Part shown: piece after piece, positions 1 through 11,539 of the stretch
Numbering within the stretch: position 1 is the stretch's first letter
Layout: every line of letters starts with the position of its first letter
DNA from: Candidatus Enterovibrio altilux
GTDB lineage: Bacteria > Pseudomonadota > Gammaproteobacteria > Enterobacterales > Vibrionaceae
Assembly: GCF_002381345.1 (NCBI RefSeq)
Contig: NZ_CP020660.1
Location: forward strand, 372,001 to 436,000
Length of the DNA: 64,000 nt
Direction: 5' to 3'
Position numbers and translations under genes: made by a program
The notes under the pieces: generated by a model
Seen by the model: the letters and a program-made list of their open reading frames with translations, nothing else
Database searches by the model: none
What the model was told of the DNA's origin: nothing

Positions 1-54
1 TAATTTTTTGACTCGAACCGTTGCTATCTCTGCTGGAGAAAATTTATGATAACC
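1..54 (-). mobile_element. IS5-family fragment (transposase 3' side)
   Basis: This fragment matches the region near the transposase 3' end of the IS5-like repeat, read on the minus strand, and it may continue left of the window. It stops where a plus-strand copy begins. The same minus-then-plus junction recurs at 3371/3372. Confidence 0.7.
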
Positions 55-838
55 GGCTGTATTGTCTAAATAAGGAAACTAAATTTTTTTAATCAAAACT
101 CTCAACAGTAAGGCTCACTTAAATATTCAGGTCTATGAACAATCTCCGCAACAAAATAACTAACTAGAAGCAGTATAATCAAGCTTTAATCAATCATGGC
201 TAGCTAACATTCTGTATTGATGAAAAAGCTATTTAGTTATGGAATCACACTAAACAGAGTAATGATGGAAGACCTAGTTTGTTTAGCGACTGAGCCATTA
301 CGGTGGTTTTCATGGTTAAATGCACATTTTCACTACCATTGAGATGTCTTAAAGAATTCATTAATTCTATTTTCAAACTTGTTCAACTGTCATTGTCATG
401 ACCTCATTATTTATGCATTAGCAAACGAGCCAAAACGATTAACGTCACGTTCAAGACTAAGAACAAAGGAGGCATCCAGCACTTAAATATTGATTCTATG
501 GGGCTCAAGGTTTACGGTGAAGAAAAATGAAAAGTAAAAATGTGGTGCTGATGGGAAATGGCAAGTCTGGCATCAGCTATACAGTTCAAACTTGCATTGA
601 AAAATGAGGTATAGTTACTATAAATATTCTCTATCAAAAACGACAATGTTTCGAGTTAAAGAACTACTGGTAGGGACATTAAGCTTAAAAAATTATAATG
701 CTCAAATTAGCAACACTTACTCCATAGTAAAAGCGTTAAATAAGCTGACAGGACTAGGTACATCTAACACAAAAACGATTGTCTAATAGTGAATCATGTT
801 GGGATCTATTATCTGAACTCACATTAGGAAACAAAGCT
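55..838 (+). mobile_element. IS5-family (IS903-like) copy, decayed
   Basis: The copy runs from a degenerate left inverted repeat (the consensus in this window is GGCTTTGTTTCCTAA) to a right end TTAGGAAACAAAGCT at 824-838. An internal deletion near 580-600 removes the middle of the transposase. The 60-codon open stretch at 604-786 is the C-terminal piece, with the family motif TTMFRVKELL. The full element, judged from the copy at 41199-42253, is about 1,055 bp, close to IS903. The transposase cannot be functional here. Confidence 0.9.
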
Positions 839-2366: not shown

Positions 2367-2439
2367 CTTGGTTGCTATCTGTATTATTATTTTTCCAGTT
2401 TGCAAAAAACGGGGAATATGTAACGTCATTAATTTAAAA

Positions 2440-3146
2440 ACTTTGCTTCCTACTTTAAATGCAGATAGCAAATTTCAATATGATTCACTATTAGACAAGC
2501 GCTTATGTTTTAGACATCCCTAGCCCAGTCAGCTTATTTAACGCTTTTATCATGGTATAAATTGCACTAATCTGAGTATTCTGATCCCTTAAACTCAATA
2601 TCCCTCTCAATAATTTTTTAATTCTCAACATTGCCGTTTTTAATAAAAATATTTATGGTAACTATACCTCGTTTTTCCATACTAATTTGCACAGTATCAC
2701 ACCTAGTAACGGACCACTAAATTACACATATGATCTCGTTTCCAAAAGTTGCTCTTTTCTTAGTAGGATGAGTGGAACAGCTCGTTGAATACGAACGATT
2801 CCATAATATTGTCTGGTTATTCTAAGCACTTTCGTCTGATATCTCATTGATTCTTCAGCGAGGCTGTTTAAGCAGGTTAGATAGTATTTCATCATCAGTC
2901 ACATTCAATGCACTTAACTCAGCAGCAATTATTTCATGCGTATTTATATCTACCACTAAGTGTAACTGGCGCCATACTAGTCGTTTCCCATCAATGCCAT
3001 ACTTTTTTACTTGTCATTCACCTTCTCCGTAGACTTGGAACCCTGTAGAATAATTATTAAGTATGGGATGGTTCTTTTAATCTGCATCTTAAACAGGATG
3101 TTAACCTTTTTAGCTTGTTTGCTGATGCATGCAGAGTCAGGGGGAG
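2440..3146 (-). mobile_element. IS5-family copy, 5' truncated
   Basis: The minus-strand copy begins at a decayed end (ACTTTGCTTCCTACTTT) and reads through the transposase 3' two thirds. Stops and frameshifts occur throughout. It is cut at 3146 by the end of the next IS5 fragment. Confidence 0.88.
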
Positions 3147-3371
3147 GGCTTTATTTCCTAATTCGGGTTCAGATAACAAATCTTAACATGATTCACTATT
3201 AAACATAGCTTATATTTTAGGCGTACCTAGCCCAATCAACTTATTTAACACTTTTATCATGGCGTAAGTTACGTTAATCTGAGTATTGTGATCCCTTAAG
3301 CTCAATATCCCTACGAGTAATTTTTTGACTCGAACCATTGCTGTCTCCGCTAGAGAACATTTATGATAGCA
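3147..3371 (-). mobile_element. IS5-family 3'-end fragment
   Basis: It starts with the inverted-repeat sequence GGCTTTATTTCCTAA at 3147 and covers only the last ~225 bp of the element. It ends in TTTATGATAGCA, directly abutting a plus-strand copy. The breakpoint is the same internal site seen at position 54. Confidence 0.85.
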
Positions 3372-3602
3372 GGCTTTATTTCCTAAATAAGAGACCTAAA
3401 TTTTTAATCACACTCGAAACAGTTAGGCTCACTTAAATATTTAGGTCTATGAACCAGTTTCACTACGAAAGAACTAACTGAAAAAAGTATAGTTAAGTTT
3501 TGATCAATCGTGGTTAACTAACATTCTGAATTGATGAAGAAGCTATTCAGCTATAGAATCAAACTAAGCAGGATAATTATGGAAGACCTCGTTTATTTAG
3601 TC
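3372..3602 (+). mobile_element. IS5-family 5'-end fragment
   Basis: It starts with inverted repeat GGCTTTATTTCCTAAATAAG and covers the left ~230 bp of the element. It is lost at TTTATTTAGTCAC, where non-IS sequence with a terminator begins. Confidence 0.85.
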
Positions 3603-3615
3603 ACCCCATTTTAAA

Positions 3616-3645
3616 AAAGTCCATTTTAACGAGTGGGCTTTTTTT
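3616..3645 (+). terminator. Rho-independent terminator (likely)
   Basis: AAAGTCCA (3616-3623) pairs with TGGGCTTT (3634-3641) with one wobble pair, around a 10-base loop, followed by a run of seven T. It marks the left edge of the accessory island, right after the IS5 fragment. The gene it served is not visible. Confidence 0.6.
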
Positions 3646-3690
3646 GCCTAAACTTTTAGAATTATTAACAACAGAGTTGCCAATACTTAG

Positions 3691-3888
3691 CTAGTTTTCT
3701 TCACTGAACATTACAGCAGGTGACAGGGCATTAATTGTCTCGGTGAACTTGCGCTGACTTTTCAGTGAACTTTTTTGAAAGTCTTTAACTCTCCAAACCA
3801 TGTCTATTTGATTGTCTTGAGCTGTTTTTCTACTTTCTTCTACTATAGATCTAATTATTTCGGCTTCCTGCGTAAAGAACTGCCTTGT
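3691..3888 (-). pseudogene. Unidentified gene remnant (3' end)
   Basis: A 65-codon stretch on the minus strand is open from a stop codon at 3889-3891 to a TAG at 3691-3693, with no start codon near its upstream end. It contains QEAEIIRSIVEESRKTAQDN and ends in LSPAVMFSEEN. The composition is soluble and helix-prone. It reads like the C-terminus of a truncated gene rather than a chance ORF, but I do not recognise the family. It lies between the edge terminator and the decayed restriction-modification genes. Confidence 0.35.
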
Positions 3889-3922
3889 TTACTAATTAGT
3901 ATTTAAATTATAATAGTCTAGA

Positions 3923-4090
3923 ATGTCATTAAGTGAAGACAAATTCTCTACAAACCGTAAACTTCGACTTTTTAAAGAGGTTGAAGTAAGACGAATTTAT
4001 TTCATGAAAAGAAAATTTTTTCGAGAAACATCTCTAAATAACTACATCGCAAGTGAAAGAATGATAATACTATACCCAATGAAAGGATAG
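3923..4090 (+). other. Short ORF, 55 codons, unknown
   Basis: ATG at 3923 opens a 55-residue frame beginning MSLSEDKFSTNRKLRLFKEV and rich in Lys and Arg. There is no convincing ribosome binding site. It may be an N-terminal remnant of an island gene or chance. The rest of 3646-4358 shows no other structure I can name. Confidence 0.2.
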
Positions 4091-4358: not shown

Positions 4359-4667
4359 ATGTCAAAGATGAGTTTACTGAATAAAGAATTATACAATAAA
4401 ATGAAATATGGGACATCAGATCCAGCTGCAATTTTAATGTTAAAAAGTGGAGTTAGTGTAACATTCTCAAAATGGTTAAAGGAAAAGTATCCTAATTGTT
4501 GGAACTATAATACTGACAAAACTGGAATAGTTATTAAGAGAAAGATTATTGAAAAAATGATTGAAAATAACGAAAATAGTTTAAACATTTTAGAGACAAG
4601 GTTTAATGCAAGCGAGGAGAGACCTAGAATATCTCCTAGCCTTATTATAGTTACTGAAGCTTTTTAG
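4359..4667 (+). CDS. Hypothetical protein, probably a C-terminal gene remnant
   Basis: This 102-residue frame begins [20 protein letters not shown] and includes the patch [20 protein letters not shown]. The frame stays open upstream of the ATG back to a stop at about 4308, reading QPTIKGEERIEV, so the visible ORF may be the tail of a longer decayed protein. No good ribosome binding site precedes the ATG. The last 17 bases overlap the 3' end of the convergent methyltransferase pseudogene. I do not recognise the family. Its place beside a restriction-modification cluster hints at an island gene, but no function can be assigned. Confidence 0.4.
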
Positions 4668-5914
4668 ATGTTGTCGTTCCTATTCCATATGTTCTATTCA
4701 TAACCTTATACATTTTCTTAGCGATTGCTTCTATTACTGGTACAGCAACAGAGTTACCAAATTGCTTGTAAGCTTGCATGTCAGAAACAGGGATAATAAA
4801 GTTCTCAGGAAAACCTTGAAGTCTTAAACATTCTCTAGGAGTTAGTCTTCTCGGTCTCTTACCTAAATCAGACTAATCAATTAGAATTTCACTACCATCT
4901 TTGTAGTATCTAGCACTAATGGTACTTGTATAATCTGAATCTTTATCAAATAGACTAAATCCAAAACCGTTACCTTTTTCTTTATGTCTTTATTTTCTTT
5001 TCATGTTACCAGCCCAAAGTTTCTCTAAGAATGTGTACTTCTCATTAACAGTAGAGTTATCTTCTAAAATATCACCAACTTTAGCTTTCTTTCTCACTGG
5101 TATTGGCCAGTTGAACTCAGTATCACAGTCAAAGTTCTGTGGAGCTTAATCTTTATCAAATCCAACAATATAAATACGTTCTTTGTTTTGAGGGACTCCA
5201 TAGTCATAAGCTCTAACAACTTTAACTTCAACATGATAGTTCAGTTTGTACTTAAAGCTCTTCTTGCTTCTGGTGTAAGGCTCATTTCATCAAGTTCTTT
5301 CTTAGTGAAAGATGTTTTACCTTCCAGTGTATTAATAATAGTTTCAAGAGTATTACCTTTATTGTGACCTTTAAGTTGTTTCACGTTTTCTAGTAAGCAT
5401 GCTTTTGGTCGCTTATCTACGATAATTCGTTGTACATTAAAAAACAGGGTATCTCTTGTGTCAGAGAAACCTTTCTTAAGGCCAGCCTGTGAACATGGCT
5501 GACACGGGAAACCACCAACAAGTAAATCATGATCTGGGATAGATGAAGATGAAATTTGAGTAATGTCACCCTCTTGCATGTTCTCCGTAATTTATTCTGT
5601 ATGTCTTTTGAGCAAACTTATCCCATGCAGACGTAAAATGCACTTTCCACCTAATTCTTGGAATGGAAGACGTATACCACCAATACCTGCAAATAAGTGC
5701 ATAATTTTAAATTTGTTTTTCCCACGGAACATATAAGGAGGATATAGGGGAAAGTTACTAACCTTTTAGCATATTTTTGAGGTATTTCTTCTTTACCTTC
5801 TTCCCATTGCTTTACAGACTTTTGTCCTTTTTTCCCAAGTCCTAGCCAGTCAGCGAATTCCTTGCGTGTAAGGTCAAGCTCAGTTTTTTTATTATATAAT
5901 TGCTCAAATTCCAC
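4651..5914 (-). pseudogene. DNA (cytosine-5) methyltransferase with N-terminal HTH, multiply broken
   Basis: Joining the minus-strand frames recovers a complete C5 methyltransferase. An N-terminal helix-turn-helix (LTRKEFADWLGLGKKGQ, near 5870-5810) is followed by motif I LFAGIGGIR (~5715), motif IV GGFPCQPCSQAG with the catalytic Cys (~5500), motif VI ENVKQL (~5385), motif VIII QNKERIYIVG (~5180), [13 protein letters not shown] (~4840) and motif [12 protein letters not shown] (~4760). At least four frameshifts (near 5760, 5680, 5583 and 5250) and three in-frame stops (near 5149, 4990 and 4876) interrupt it. It diverges from the McrB/McrC-like genes and was presumably the protective methylase of that system. 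In related enzymes the HTH represses the methylase's own transcription; here that is inference. Confidence 0.88.
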
Positions 5915-6061
5915 TGAATTGCTCTCGAGATAAAAATAATTTTTTTTACATAAAGTATTTTCACAGATAAATCACATAATAAAAATAGCAAGTTTTACTA
6001 ACGTTAAAAAACTCATATTTTAGTAGAATATAAAACATAACTATTTAATAAATGGAGTTTT
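5915..6061. promoter_or_regulatory. Divergent control region of the decayed R-M system
   Basis: This 147-bp AT-rich spacer separates the HTH-methyltransferase (minus) from the McrB-like gene (plus). It contains the palindrome TAACGTTA and two TTTTACTAA/TTTTAGTAG-like boxes, plus a possible -10 TATAAA about 40 bases before the plus-strand start. An operator for the methylase HTH would be expected here, but no footprint-like repeat is conclusive. Confidence 0.3.
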
Positions 6062-7569
6062 ATGAGCTTATTGGATTTGGAAAAATTATTCGATTAATGT
6101 TCTAAGAAGATGAGGAATGACGCAATGCTTTGTTCTGAGTCTGAAGTACCAAATAATTTCATAGACTATTATGAAGCAAACTATGTTAAGGGTGGAGAAG
6201 AGTTTAAACGTGGACAGTATGTTTCTTTTTATAAAAAACAATAAATTCAGGTTTATTCCACATCAATGGTTTTACATAGCAGCTTATTACTTTTCTTATG
6301 TCGTAGAGATGGAAAAATATAAAGTTCTATTCAATAAAATCTTTAAACAATTCAATAAAGAACCAAAAATTTCAAAACAGAAGCAACTTGAACCATCTAC
6401 TGTCGAAAAATATATGAGTGAGATAGATAAGGTGGTTAGCAGCGACGATAAAAAAATTTTTATAAAGTTTTTAACTGATCCAAGTTGGCATCGTGCTAAC
6501 AAATATTTAGATCGTTCAGATCTTGTTTCTAGTGCTTTATTTAATCTTGCCGGAATAACACATGCAGACGGTGCGACATTTAGTCTAATAAGTAATTTCT
6601 TAAACGCAAACCAAAGAGGAATTGAGCTTTTAAGATTAGAAAAAAAGCTCTCACAATGTATCTGTTACCTCTGCAGAAAGCCAGACGAGTGTAAAAGAAA
6701 AAATCTTATCGTTTATAAAGCTCCTGGTACAGGGAAGAGTTATTATCTAAAAAATAATTTTTCAAATATAATTAAAACGGTGTTTCATAGTGAGTATTCA
6801 AACGCTGACTTTGTTGGATCAGTAGGACCAACTATGGATTATTCAGAAGATAAACCAAAGGTGATGTATGACCTTATTCCAGGGCCATTTGCATTAGCAA
6901 TAAAGAAGTCAACAATTACACCGACCCAGCCAGTTACTTTATTGATTGAAAAAATTAATAGAGGTGATACCTCAAATATATTTGGTGAAATTCTTCAACT
7001 TCTTGAGCGTAATAATGAAGGTAGAAGTGAATATCCAGTATCAGTAAGCTTACCATTTGAGAAGTAGCTGAAAGAAAACTGCTCAGCTTCTTTAGAGGAT
7101 AACATGTTAGTTATTCCTTCGAATTTATCATTAGTTGCAACAATGAATAGTTCAGACCAAAGAGTTCAAGCAATGGATTCCGCATTCAAGAGACGATGGA
7201 ACTTTTTATATCGACCTGTTAAATTTAAAGCTGATGATATTTCAAAAATAACAATCATTTATAACGATCATGATATATCATGAAAGAACTTTGCAAACGG
7301 TATTAATAAAGTTTTAGAAAAAGTTGTTTTTATGCCTGAAGATAGACTTATAGGACCTTATTTCTTAAAAGAAGGTGAATTTGAATCAATTGATTCTATC
7401 TCAAAAAAGCTGTTATTGTACTTATGGGATGATGTATTGAGATTGTCTGGTCGTGAGTTAATATTTGATGAAAACATAACTTCCTTTTTTTGATATTCAA
7501 GAAAAGTTCAAAGAAGGAGGCTGTATCTTTTCAAAAGATGTGCACAAAGCTATGGGGGTCCCAGCTTAA
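6062..7569 (+). pseudogene. McrB-like AAA+ GTPase restriction subunit (LlaJI R1-like), broken
   Basis: The gene starts at ATG 6062 (MSLLDLEKLFD, then a stop) and shifts frame near 6242. It stays open to a TAG at 7065-7067 and continues with further stops (near 7281 and 7492) to TAA at 7567-7569. Features of McrB-type ATPases are visible: a Walker A-like KAPGTGKS (the first Gly is now Lys), a Walker B-like LLIEKINRGDTSNIFGEI (IDEINR is expected, so the acidic residue after IE is lost) and VATMNSSDQRVQAMDSAFKR. The N-terminal ~170 residues would be the DNA-recognition part. The McrC-like gene follows after one base, so they formed an operon. The pairing with a C5 methylase recalls LlaJI-type systems. 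Confidence 0.85.
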
Positions 7570-7570
7570 G

Positions 7571-8839
7571 ATGAGTAGTTAATTTGAGATCTACAATGAT
7601 GGAGATTAGCTAGGAGAAGATATTCCTTTAGAGCTTCAAAACTATCTATTGAGCAATAGAATGACGACTTCAAATGGTAAGTCTATACAGTTTGCTGGAG
7701 TTGTAGAACTTAATAAAACGTATCTTATATTGCCTAAACGATTTGCAAAAAACAGTTTTGTAGAGCAGATTACTCTTATACTAAAAACTTTAAATAAATT
7801 TTCTGGAAAAACAAGGGATTTAGAATTCCAAACTGTATAGTTGGAATGGGAACAATTGTGAAAAAATTAATCTTGCCTTGTACATTCTTAAAGACTGGCT
7901 TCATAACGGTTTGATTAAAGATTTAGTTAAAAAGAATAAAAAAATGGAACAGAAAAAATAAATTGGAAGAGAACTCTTGATAAGCACTTGCCAATAGATT
8001 CAAATGAATCACCGATTTACTTAAACTATGAAACCTCAGTAGTACAAAAACAATTAAATAGTAGAGTTGCGTTAATTCATAAAAAAATAGTTTCGAGTTG
8101 CGATTGAAGTCATCATTGGCTCCTACTAAGTGAGAACTTTATTGCAAGAGAAGTCCATAGCCTTAATTTGAAAGAGAAAGATATTAAGCAGGATATCCTG
8201 TTGCTTAGGGAGTTCACAAGGAGTGTGTTCTGTGAAAGAACATTAAACTTACTTAGAATAATAATTGATTACTTGTCTCTAACGAATATTTCCAATAATA
8301 GATCTGAGTATGCGTATGGAACATATTTATTCCATGTCTTGTAAAAGGACATTTGTAACACGATCATAAATGGAGATGAGTCCCTTAAAGGGCTATTCCC
8401 ACAACCAAGATATAGATACAAAGAAGGTATCAGTAGACAAAAGCCTAAAATCTTTATGGAACAAATACCAGATACCTTAGTTAGAAAAGAAGATACTTTA
8501 ATTGTTATCGATGTAAAGTATTACAATATTAAAATTAAGAGCACTCCAGGTTGGTCTGATCTGGTTAAACAGTTTTACTATGGGTGGTCAGCAACACTAA
8601 AAACTGAGTTGAAACTGAGAAATATTCTAGCATTTCCAGGAGAGGAATATTGTCATATAGGAGAAGTATATATGGAAAATAAAACTAGAGAGTATACTGA
8701 ACTAGGTGTTGTGGAGTGCTTAGAGGTTCCTATTGTTGACTTCATGAAAGCATATCTAAGAAATGATTCAAGCACATACCTAGACAATATTCTTCAAGAG
8801 ACATCTATTCAAAAATTGATTCATGACTTCATCTATTAA
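7571..8839 (+). pseudogene. McrC-like nuclease subunit (LlaJI R2-like), broken
   Basis: The frame starts MSS and is stopped at once (TAA) and again 8 codons later (TAG), then runs GEDIPLELQNYLLSNR and QFAGVVELNKTYLILPKRF to 7840. Several frame changes and stops follow to about 8340. The last 127 codons (8456-8839) are intact and hold a PD-(D/E)xK-type nuclease core: IPDTLVRKEDTLIVIDVKYY, with the D-x-K in IDVKYY. This is the layout of McrC and the LlaJI R2 subunit. It directly follows the McrB-like gene. Loss of translation starts makes the nuclease inactive, which removes the need for the methylase. Confidence 0.85.
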
Positions 8840-8925
8840 ACCAGTAGAAGAAATTCAGATTAATTTAACCGAGGAGGAAACTATGGAATGTCCTCGCTTA
8901 ATGGTGAACTACTCTTTCAAATCAG

Positions 8926-8984
8926 CTTAAATCAATAGTCTGGGTCATTTTAATTCGATCAAATTCAGTCACTATTGATTTAAG
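8926..8984. repeat. Perfect 14-bp inverted repeat
   Basis: CTTAAATCAATAGT (8926-8939) and ACTATTGATTTAAG (8971-8984) are exact reverse complements separated by 31 bases. There is no T-tract, so it is not a standard terminator. It lies between the mcrC remnant and the ISL3 fragment and could be an IS end pair. Nothing else was identified in 8840-9085. Confidence 0.6.
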
Positions 8985-9085
8985 TTATTGATATCCTACT
9001 ACATATTCTAAATTTTACACGAGCGTATTTGTTAGGTCTTACTTGAACCTCCATATCGCTCATAAATAAGTCTTAAAACAATGAC

Positions 9086-9298
9086 TTATCGATAATAATA
9101 GAGAAGCTTCAATCTGTAATTTGTGAAGCTCCTAAATCCATATGCACAACGTTGAATCCACTTTGCCTTGCAGTTATATCCCTCGGTTCTCCCATTGTTT
9201 AAAACGTTAGTTTTAAAGTAATTAAGTATTTGTTCTGACCATTTCATTAAGGTCTTTCGATAATGTAGGACTCTTTTCTGTTGATCTACTCCACTTAG
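9086..9298 (-). mobile_element. ISL3-family transposase C-terminal fragment
   Basis: The minus strand is open from the junction at about 9298 to TAA at 9086-9088. It translates to a chain containing MKWSEQILNYFKTNV, RTEGYNCKAKWIQRCAYGF and RSFTNYRLKLL. This is the conserved C-terminal segment of ISL3-family transposases (TNxxxEGxNxKxKxxKRxAYGFRxFxNFRxR). Its 5' part is replaced by an IS5 copy. The fragment has no stop inside, so it looks younger than the IS5 pieces. Confidence 0.75.
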
Positions 9299-10088
9299 TC
9301 ATTACGACGGCTTTCATAACTAAATGCGTATTTTCAATGTCATTGAGAGGTCTGCAAAAATTCATTAATACTATTTTCAAACTTGCTCAACTGCCATTGT
9401 AATGCCCTCACTGTTCATGCATTAACAAGTGAGCTCAAACAATTAACGTCACGTTCAAGACTAAGACTGCAGGAATTATTCAATACTTAGCCATTGATTA
9501 TACTGGACTCAAAGTCTACAGTGTAGACGAATAAAAAGTAAAAAAGCACAGCACTGATGGAAACGGCAAGTCTAGTAACAAGTTACATTTAGCGGTAGCT
9601 ATAAATATGCATGCAATCATTACTTCTAAGTTAAGTGCATCAAATATTACTGATGGTGAAATACTGCTAACTTGCTCAAACAGCCCGCCGAAAAATAAAT
9701 AAAATATCAGCCAATGGTGCTTACGACATCGTTCGTATTCAACGAGCGGTCCCACTCATCCCACTAAAAAAAAGAGCCACTGTTGGGAAACGAAGTCATC
9801 CGTGTAATTCAGTGGTCAGTTACCAGAAGTTATACGGTTCAATCAGCATTAAAAAACGAGGTATGGTTACCATCAACGTTTTCTATCATTGACAACAATG
9901 TTTCGAGTCAAAAAATTACTGAAACGACATTAAACCTAAGGAATCAGACAACTCAGATCATCGAAACCTACATTACGATACAAGCGTTAAATAAGCAGAC
10001 CAGCTTAGGTATGCCTAACACGAAAACGAGCGTCTAATAGTTCATTATTTTGGAATTGCTATCTGCATTCAAATTAGGAAACAAAGCC
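9298..10088 (+). mobile_element. IS5-family copy, 5' truncated
   Basis: The plus-strand copy lacks its first ~240 bp and ends in AGGAAACAAAGCC. The translation is broken (stops near 9531 and 9699), with the C-terminal part open at 9783-10037. Confidence 0.88.
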
Positions 10089-10195
10089 GATAAAAATAAT
10101 AAATTATTATGATAATATCGTGATAACGAACTTCATGATACGTTGAAAATTAAAAAATAATCTTTATTCGTACGGAATTAGCAAAAAACACAAAA

Positions 10196-10462
10196 ATGAT
10201 GCTACTGAACTTTTATTCAAAAAAACTCAAGCTATTTAATTTATCGTCGATAATATCAGATAACAAATCGTGGAGGCATACGATAACTTGGTTCCCCAAA
10301 CGTTCAAACTCTTTACTGCAAAAAGTAGCCAATATCCAAAAACAAGACAAAATTAAAGAACGAACCGAACAGCAAGAAGTCAATGACATTTTTGAACTAT
10401 TGAGTGAAGACGGCTCAGAAGCATCTAGTAAAAAAAATGGATTACTCGATATTTATGTTTAA
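10196..10462 (+). CDS. Hypothetical protein, 88 codons
   Basis: The ATG at 10196 opens a frame ending just before an IS5 end. The product has a hydrophobic start (MMLLNFYSKKLKLFNL) and a charged C-terminal half with KQDKIKERTEQQEVNDIFEL and LSEDGSEASSKKNGLLDIYV. No ribosome binding site is clear. The acidic, linker-like tail reads like a real protein C-terminus, so this may be a remnant joined to an unrelated start by deletion. It is bracketed by IS5 copies. I do not recognise a family. Confidence 0.35.
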   Translation: MMLLNFYSKKLKLFNLSSIISDNKSWRHTITWFPKRSNSLLQKVANIQKQDKIKERTEQQEVNDIFELLSEDGSEASSKKNGLLDIYV

Positions 10463-10467
10463 TAGAC

Positions 10468-11463
10468 GGTTTTATTTCTTAATTTGTGTTCAGACAGCAA
10501 CTCTCAACATAGTTAACTGTTGAATGTTTACTTTCATAAACATACCTAGTCCAAGAAGTTTATTTAACGCGTGTATCATAGCGTAAATTTCGCTAATCTA
10601 AGCATTGTGCTCTTCTAAGCTCAATGTCTCTCTGAGAGAGTTTTTGATTCAAAACAATGTTGTCATTAATCGAAAACGTTTCTGGCAACTGACAACTAAA
10701 TCACACGGATAATCTCGTTTCCCAAAAGTTATCCTTTTCTTAGTGGGACAAGTGGAACCGCTCGCTTAATACGAATAGTTTCGTCACATTGTCTGGTGTC
10801 ATAAGCACCATCGGCTCATATTCATTTATTTTTTAGTGAGCTGTTTGAATGAGTTAGGTAACATTTCACCGTCATCCATATTTGATACACTGAATTGAGC
10901 AGCAATAGTTTCACACATATTTACAGCTACCGCTAAATGTAACTTGTTGCAGACTCACCGTTTCCATCAGTGCCATGCTTTTTTACTCTCCATTCGCCTT
11001 CACCGTAGACTTTGAGTCCAGTATAATCAATGGCTAAGTGCTGGATAGTTCCTTTATTCTTTACCCTGAACGTGCCGTTAACCATTATGGTTCGCTTACT
11101 GATACATGAATAGCACGGGTATAATGACAACAGTTAATCAAGTTTAACAGCGGAATTAATTAATCCTTGCAGACCGCTCAGTAGCATTGAAAATACGCAT
11201 TTAACCATGAAAACCGTCGTCATGGCTCAGTCGCTAAATAAACGAGGTTTCCTATGATTACTTTGTTTCGTGTGGTTTCATAGCTGAATAGCTTCTTCAT
11301 CAATCCAGAGTATTAATGAGCCACAATTGATTAAGTATTGATTACGCTTTTTTCGGTTAGTTATTTTGTAGCGGAGCTTGTTCACAGGCCTGAATATTTA
11401 CGTGAATTTAGCTGTTTAGAGTGTTGATTAGTAATTTAGTTCCTTAACCGAGGAAACAAAGTC
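10468..11463 (-). mobile_element. IS5-family copy, nearly full length, decayed
   Basis: Both ends are visible (GGTTTTATTTCTTAA left, AGGAAACAAAGTC right). A short internal deletion near 10690 removes about 50 bp. The segment around 10933-11130 retains the first catalytic region (AIDYTGLKVYGEGEWRVKKH), with the DDE Asp in AIDYTG, but stops and frameshifts elsewhere kill the transposase. Confidence 0.9.
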
Positions 11464-11539
11464 GTCCATCTATAAAATAAATGACTCATAGCCTTTCGTG
11501 AGTAGGGAAAAATTTCACTGACTTTAGTCTGCATAAAAC

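Follow-up and report, generated by a model that had tools for sequence, protein, structure and literature searches.

The window analysed here is a stretch of 64,000 nucleotides of contig NZ_CP020660.1, and its positions 4651-8839 hold three broken genes: a C5 cytosine methyltransferase fused to a helix-turn-helix (HTH) domain on the minus strand and, on the plus strand, an McrB-like GTPase and a LlaJI-family nuclease. They are examined here as a candidate remnant of a LlaJI-type restriction-modification (R-M) system. The features of the locus, with the basis of each assignment in brackets, are:

4651..5914, minus strand, pseudogene of an HTH-fused C5 cytosine methyltransferase, start codon uncertain (PF00145 match, identity to relatives, lesions)
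5756..5914, minus strand, HTH piece at the methyltransferase N-terminus (alignable with the same end of intact relatives)
4900..4974, minus strand, target-recognition signature G(K/N)GFx13T(I/L)x3YYK (matches the published CCNGG-type signature)
5915..6061, no strand, divergent gap in which the operator-like site is unrecognisable (mismatch search, shuffled control)
6062..7569, plus strand, pseudogene of an McrB-like GTPase (AAA_5, PADLOC REase_II and PDB matches, lesions)
6717..6740, plus strand, Walker A motif KAPGTGKS, first Gly replaced by Lys (alignment with relatives)
6942..6965, plus strand, Walker B motif LIEKINRG, second acid replaced by Lys (alignment with relatives)
7143..7160, plus strand, McrB GTPase signature N-x-x-D (MNSSDQ), kept (alignment with relatives)
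7571..8839, plus strand, pseudogene of a LlaJI-family nuclease (PF09563 match, lesions)
8507..8524, plus strand, PD-(D/E)xK catalytic core D-x-K (IDVKYY), kept (aligns with D[AS]KYY of intact relatives)

The host of the window matches a reduced, light-producing symbiont of deep-sea anglerfish, "Ca. Enterovibrio luxaltus" CC26, whose genome is reported as 2,143,356 bp in 4 contigs (N50 1,604,691; 37.7% G+C) with 785 pseudogenes (PMC6020299). Two luciferase-family genes lie side by side in the host genome, as expected for a luminous symbiont; the family is broad and was also matched in 10 of 14 control genomes.

Positions 4651-5920 were translated in all three minus-strand frames and positions 6001-9002 in all three on the plus strand; read-through proteins were made by joining the frame pieces, with X placed at stops and joins. 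The methyltransferase read-through matched PF00145 with an E-value of 3.2e-94 and is 50-58% identical to eight full-length intact relatives. The GTPase read-through matched AAA_5 barely above the Pfam cut-off (E 1.2e-4; 22.6 vs 22 bits) and PADLOC REase_II with an E-value of 4.7e-38, and its best PDB matches were McrB-type GTPases (E 6.4e-10). The nuclease matched RE_LlaJI (PF09563) above the cut-off, with an E-value of 6.1e-31. These family scores are far beyond chance, and the order of the genes, with the GTPase directly before the nuclease, is that of intact relatives. The HTH of the window is weak in Pfam (Aca2_YdiL, E 0.012; HTH_3, E 0.19), both matches falling below the cut-off, as does that of the intact relative in locus L025 (HTH_31, E 6.6e-5). 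A preliminary description of this DNA had read the locus as an R-M system of LlaJI/McrBC-like kind in decay, its C5 methyltransferase fused to an HTH and every gene broken. The Pfam, PADLOC and PDB matches and the alignments agree with that identification: the frame-corrected proteins matched the expected PF00145, AAA_5 and RE_LlaJI, stops and frame changes were found in all three genes, and intact relatives with the same layout exist in other species. The coordinates given there were right, and the GTPase probably starts at 6062, because an ATG there opens the same frame ahead of a stop.

The motifs named in that description also bear alignment. MNSSDQ, of the N-x-x-D type named for McrB GTPases (PMC11090510), and the nuclease core IDVKYY are both retained. 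The first Gly of Walker A, present in all 18 relatives with sequence at that position, is Lys in the window; the Walker B change falls on the second acid, Glu in 19 of 19 relatives and Lys here, with the first acid retained. The N-terminal domain of the GTPase is presumably its specificity part. The N-termini of 33 relatives and the window form two clusters, the window lying in the second, and a profile comparison between the two found no detectable similarity. One domain per cluster was modelled (L071 4595-5074 and L097 3650-4360), and both models were confident, with a mean pLDDT of 90.1 and 89.7. In searches of the PDB with these models, Foldseek gave no match at E ≤ 0.001 and VIA-align 2 none at Z ≥ 5, the viral structure library not being searched; an absence of matches to models of this kind establishes neither a new fold nor different folds of the two N-terminal types. 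Two unrelated-looking McrB-like N-terminal domains accompany the same methyltransferase type.

Of 394 genomes of the order, 13 contain RE_LlaJI, the host included, as do 7 plasmid records. A contig scan with the broken window nuclease as query confirmed no relative; an alignment of eight intact nucleases was used as the query for relatives and yielded 50 named loci. One window-type methyltransferase stands divergent from the GTPase and nuclease in 21 of the 50, which come from Vibrio, Photobacterium, Aliivibrio, Salinivibrio, Shewanella, Pseudoalteromonas, Psychromonas, Gilliamella, Citrobacter and others. The same type is placed otherwise in four loci (L091, L102, L106 and L113), eight have other methyltransferase types, and the remaining 17 have none in the stretch examined or are cut. 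Plasmid pM138.2 of Salinivibrio costicola has the same divergent layout, its three genes being annotated as intact coding sequences. The resemblance to LlaJI-type systems noted in the preliminary description therefore holds, but the single divergent HTH-methyltransferase, which was taken there as a departure, is the commonest layout, and the PcaRCI system also has one methyltransferase. Loci L035 and L039 have about 4.5 kb between the GTPase gene and the divergent HTH-methyltransferase. The genus includes one other reduced genome, of 2.6 Mb, which encodes a C5 methyltransferase of another kind, lacking the HTH (L128 4361-5311, minus strand); this enzyme has the CCNGG signature treated below and one in-frame TGA, and no LlaJI partner was found on its 7-kb contig.

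This linkage bears on the possibility that the restriction genes were an independent McrBC-like system of Type IV, which cuts methylated DNA, next to an unrelated regulatory methyltransferase. The GTPase is indeed McrB-like, and McrBC homologues are reported to be often linked to methyltransferases (PMC2614495). The nuclease belongs, however, to RE_LlaJI, whose namesake restricts unmethylated DNA (PMC1459862), and the same methyltransferase type is divergently linked in 21 of the 50 loci and lies nearby in another arrangement in four more. A Type IV system is accordingly considered improbable, and a LlaJI-type R-M system remains the preferred identification.

The target of the window-type methyltransferase, when whole, is predicted to be CCNGG. 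The signature G(K/N)GFx13T(I/L)x3YYK is described as typical of CCNGG methyltransferases (PMC3346939); it is kept in the window and in 25 of 25 tested enzymes of its type. Three methyltransferases from other LlaJI-family loci lack it, as do the two EcoRII-paired ones. The LlaMI-paired enzyme, from a family of systems predicted to recognise CCNGG (PMC3346939), is one residue off. Against the PDB, the target-recognition stretch matched two Dcm-type structures, 3lx6 and 3me5 (E 4e-12 and 5e-12), followed by calmodulins at E 0.4 or worse. The stretch of the window is 66-71% identical to those of three LlaJI-linked enzymes, 59% to that of the LlaMI-neighbour enzyme and 49-53% to those of two enzymes beside EcoRII-type nucleases; for the three intact LlaJI-linked enzymes, identity over this stretch is 74-81% with the LlaMI-linked enzyme and 42-47% with the two EcoRII-linked ones. 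By analogy, the prediction is supported by PcaRCI of Pectobacterium carotovorum RC5297, in which one methyltransferase, accompanied by McrBC-like subunits, was shown to methylate CCNGG (PMC8989522).

The operator-like site in living relatives is the sole part of this work that goes beyond annotation. Just ahead of the methyltransferase start, intact divergent loci carry a site with the consensus TTATCCGGTTT-N4-CCCGG. All 23 scored divergent loci (the 21 named ones plus L025 and L043) reach 13-16 of its 16 positions, and a looser form occurs once in each of 7 of 70 loci, always in the divergent gap. The site also precedes the methyltransferase in L035, L039 and the LlaMI-paired L067 (14-15 of 16); in L091, L102, L106 and L113 the score is 8-12 of 16, which means a weak site or none. 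The exact pattern occurs three times in the 394 genomes, each time at a window-type methyltransferase locus. Matches with at most one mismatch numbered 33, vs 29 for a reversed control pattern; one-mismatch matches as a whole are therefore at chance level. Among 30 matches examined, 3 of 3 exact and 2 of 27 one-mismatch sites stood beside a window-type methyltransferase. A literature search with the operator string returned no R-M paper by title, and no novelty is claimed for the site; a search for R-M in E. luxaltus returned, by title, only a match on Chryseobacterium.

A set of 22 sites was compiled from 19 of the 21 named divergent loci (the near-duplicates L080 and L099 being dropped) together with L035, L039 and L067. 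In 21 of them the final five bases conform to CCNGG. At the middle base C is found 15 times, T 4 and A 3; the remaining four positions together show 1 change in 88 (Fisher p 4e-5, ignoring shared ancestry). The left arm, too, has one variable base (5 of 22). The pattern fits an embedded CCNGG methylation target within the operator-like site, as judged from base variation. Locus L067 lies on the Acinetobacter plasmid pTR3_5 (1316-3387), where an HTH-methyltransferase 54% identical to that of the window is paired with a LlaMI-family nuclease. Since this locus too has the operator-like site, the regulator and the methyltransferase appear to pass from one nuclease type to another. We put at somewhat below an even chance the fuller model in which, in living relatives, the methyltransferase acts through a shared divergent operator holding its own CCNGG target. 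Methylation of the operator could then signal how well the chromosome is shielded and set the moment at which restriction begins, and the operator would go with the methyltransferase whichever nuclease, LlaJI-type or LlaMI-type, it accompanies.

The window has lost this operator. The pattern was not matched anywhere in the window with up to three mismatches, and the best match around the divergent gap reaches 9 of 16 positions vs a shuffled mean of 9.1. The genes are similarly eroded: in-frame stops number 3 in the methyltransferase, 3 in the GTPase and 4 in the nuclease, and frame changes 4, 2 and 2, which gives 10 stops and 8 frame changes, or 18 lesions in 4.2 kb. A scripted count gave 4, 3 and 4 stops, the one extra lying at the end of a methyltransferase frame piece. 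Family-invariant residues are replaced at 39 of 203 positions in the methyltransferase, 16 of 84 in the GTPase and 12 of 40 in the nuclease (19-30%). The corresponding values for leave-one-out intact controls were 0-15 of 206-221, 0-3 of 85-88 and 0-6 of 41-47; one truncated methyltransferase, five GTPases and four nucleases (distant or partial) were dropped before the count.

From the number of stops (4, 3, 4), roughly 0.034-0.060 substitutions per site would have accumulated after the genes were inactivated; the estimate is crude, taking the sequence to have evolved neutrally from then on, and suggests divergence of several percent. For E. luxaltus samples 2252 single-nucleotide polymorphisms are reported (PMC6773444), about 0.1% of the 2.1 Mb genome, and set against this value the loss seems to predate the present-day diversity of the species by far. 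The claim of the preliminary description that the loss was recent, made on the ground that the motifs are still readable, is thus not supported: the estimated divergence, the replaced invariant residues, the lost operator and the low polymorphism all speak against it.

The lesions could in principle be sequencing or assembly errors in a system that is intact in the living bacterium, and the coverage of CC26 is given as just 14× (PMC6020299). Assembly error is unlikely, because long open genes share the window, among them SecA (904 aa), a class I tRNA synthetase (969 aa) and MurJ (519 aa); two Mur ligases are also open. The 18 lesions are confined to 4.2 kb, and error would not yield the replacement of 19-30% of invariant residues, Walker A and B included, so that an intact system is rated very improbable. 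Scarcely any chance is given to the retention of part of the locus for a new use, such as a truncated GTPase piece or the HTH piece acting as a regulator: a 298-codon open reading frame (ORF) does survive in the GTPase, but it bears both Walker substitutions, the HTH piece is without the operator of its relatives, and invariant residues are changed in all three genes.

The locus is thus, with high confidence in the reading as a whole, what is left of a decayed LlaJI-type R-M system, probably a horizontal acquisition. When whole, the C5 methyltransferase would have methylated the CCNGG sites of the host chromosome. Its HTH, as in M.SsoII, would have bound an operator between the divergent genes, repressing its own gene and balancing it against the restriction genes; M.SsoII is reported to bind an intergenic operator and to control both genes (PMC3978073). 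In LlaJI, an McrB-like subunit binds the site and a PD-(D/E)xK subunit cuts, restricting unmethylated DNA (PMC1459862). By analogy, the N-terminal domain of the McrB-like subunit would here have read unmethylated target DNA, and the subunit, binding or hydrolysing nucleotide, would have steered cutting by the PD-(D/E)xK LlaJI-family nuclease. In the anglerfish symbiont the operator and all three genes have eroded, possibly under relaxed selection, and the system is dead.

Within the genus, RE_LlaJI was found in 1 of 18 genomes, that of the window's host, and acquisition by transfer is therefore suggested. Several points weigh against this account. The absence of RE_LlaJI from the other 17 genomes could reflect loss there. 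The window methyltransferase forms a very long branch that meets another long branch, so the tree does not place it and a donor cannot be named. GTPase activity was undetected for R1.LlaJI, the LlaJI homologue of the McrB-like subunit (PMC1459862), which makes the energy step unsure. The CCNGG specificity and the binding of the operator are themselves predictions.

The surroundings of the locus were inspected as well. For an empty site, one genome of the genus (G004) was compared; its counterparts of the oxidoreductase and MlaA genes that flank the locus are separated by about 226 kb, so that no simple empty site was found in it. Multi-copy repeats flank the R-M block (window 1-837, 2437-4047 and 9293-11464), 67-82% identical to other copies in the genome, and are probably insertion sequence remnants. 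One neighbouring ORF is convergent with the methyltransferase:

4359-4664, plus strand, ORF of 102 aa (weak HamB similarity)

Its likeness to the C-terminus of the HamB helicase is weak (three PADLOC models, E 3e-4 to 4e-3). It had no Pfam match, no plasmid match and, in 100 genomes searched, none beyond its own genome; a HamB profile search of its own genome did not report it.

The window itself carries little weight, being one more cluster of defence pseudogenes in a symbiont that is losing genes. The fish symbiont has lost LlaJI-type restriction and has no other detectable C5 methyltransferase, the window methyltransferase being the sole match in a PF00145 search of the host genome. The intact relatives are more useful, as they represent a LlaJI-type restriction variety spread across several marine genera. 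Their single predicted-CCNGG methyltransferase and conserved operator-like site make the regulatory model directly testable.

Among known systems, PcaRCI likewise combines one C5 methyltransferase, in its case shown to methylate CCNGG, with McrB-like and McrC-like subunits, and it restricts unmethylated plasmids and phage (PMC8989522). Its nuclease is reported as DUF2357, whereas that of the window is RE_LlaJI, a comparison made by description only; an HTH or autoregulatory operator is unmentioned in the available text of that report, and PcaRCI is active while the window copy is dead (PMC8989522). M.SsoII, M.Ecl18kI and the LlaMI-family systems share the N-terminal HTH fused to a C5 methyltransferase, with CCNGG as their target and as the predicted one here, but their partner nucleases are described as conventional, not McrBC-like (PMC3978073, PMC3346939), and the reported operator of M.SsoII is unlike the site found here (PMC3978073). 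BsuMI and LlaI are likewise McrBC-related Type II systems, with a methyltransferase pair and three-gene restriction cassettes (PMC2614495, PMC1459862). LlaJI of Lactococcus lactis pNP40 shares the McrB-like specificity subunit, the RE_LlaJI PD-(D/E)xK nuclease and C5 methylation; it differs in having two C5 methyltransferases followed by two restriction genes, in contrast to the one divergent methyltransferase of the window, and an asymmetric site, GACGC/GCGTC, where a symmetric one is predicted here (PMC1459862). As the window has one methyltransferase rather than the two of LlaJI and BsuMI, the locus is a single-methyltransferase variety of LlaJI-type R-M and not LlaJI in the strict sense.

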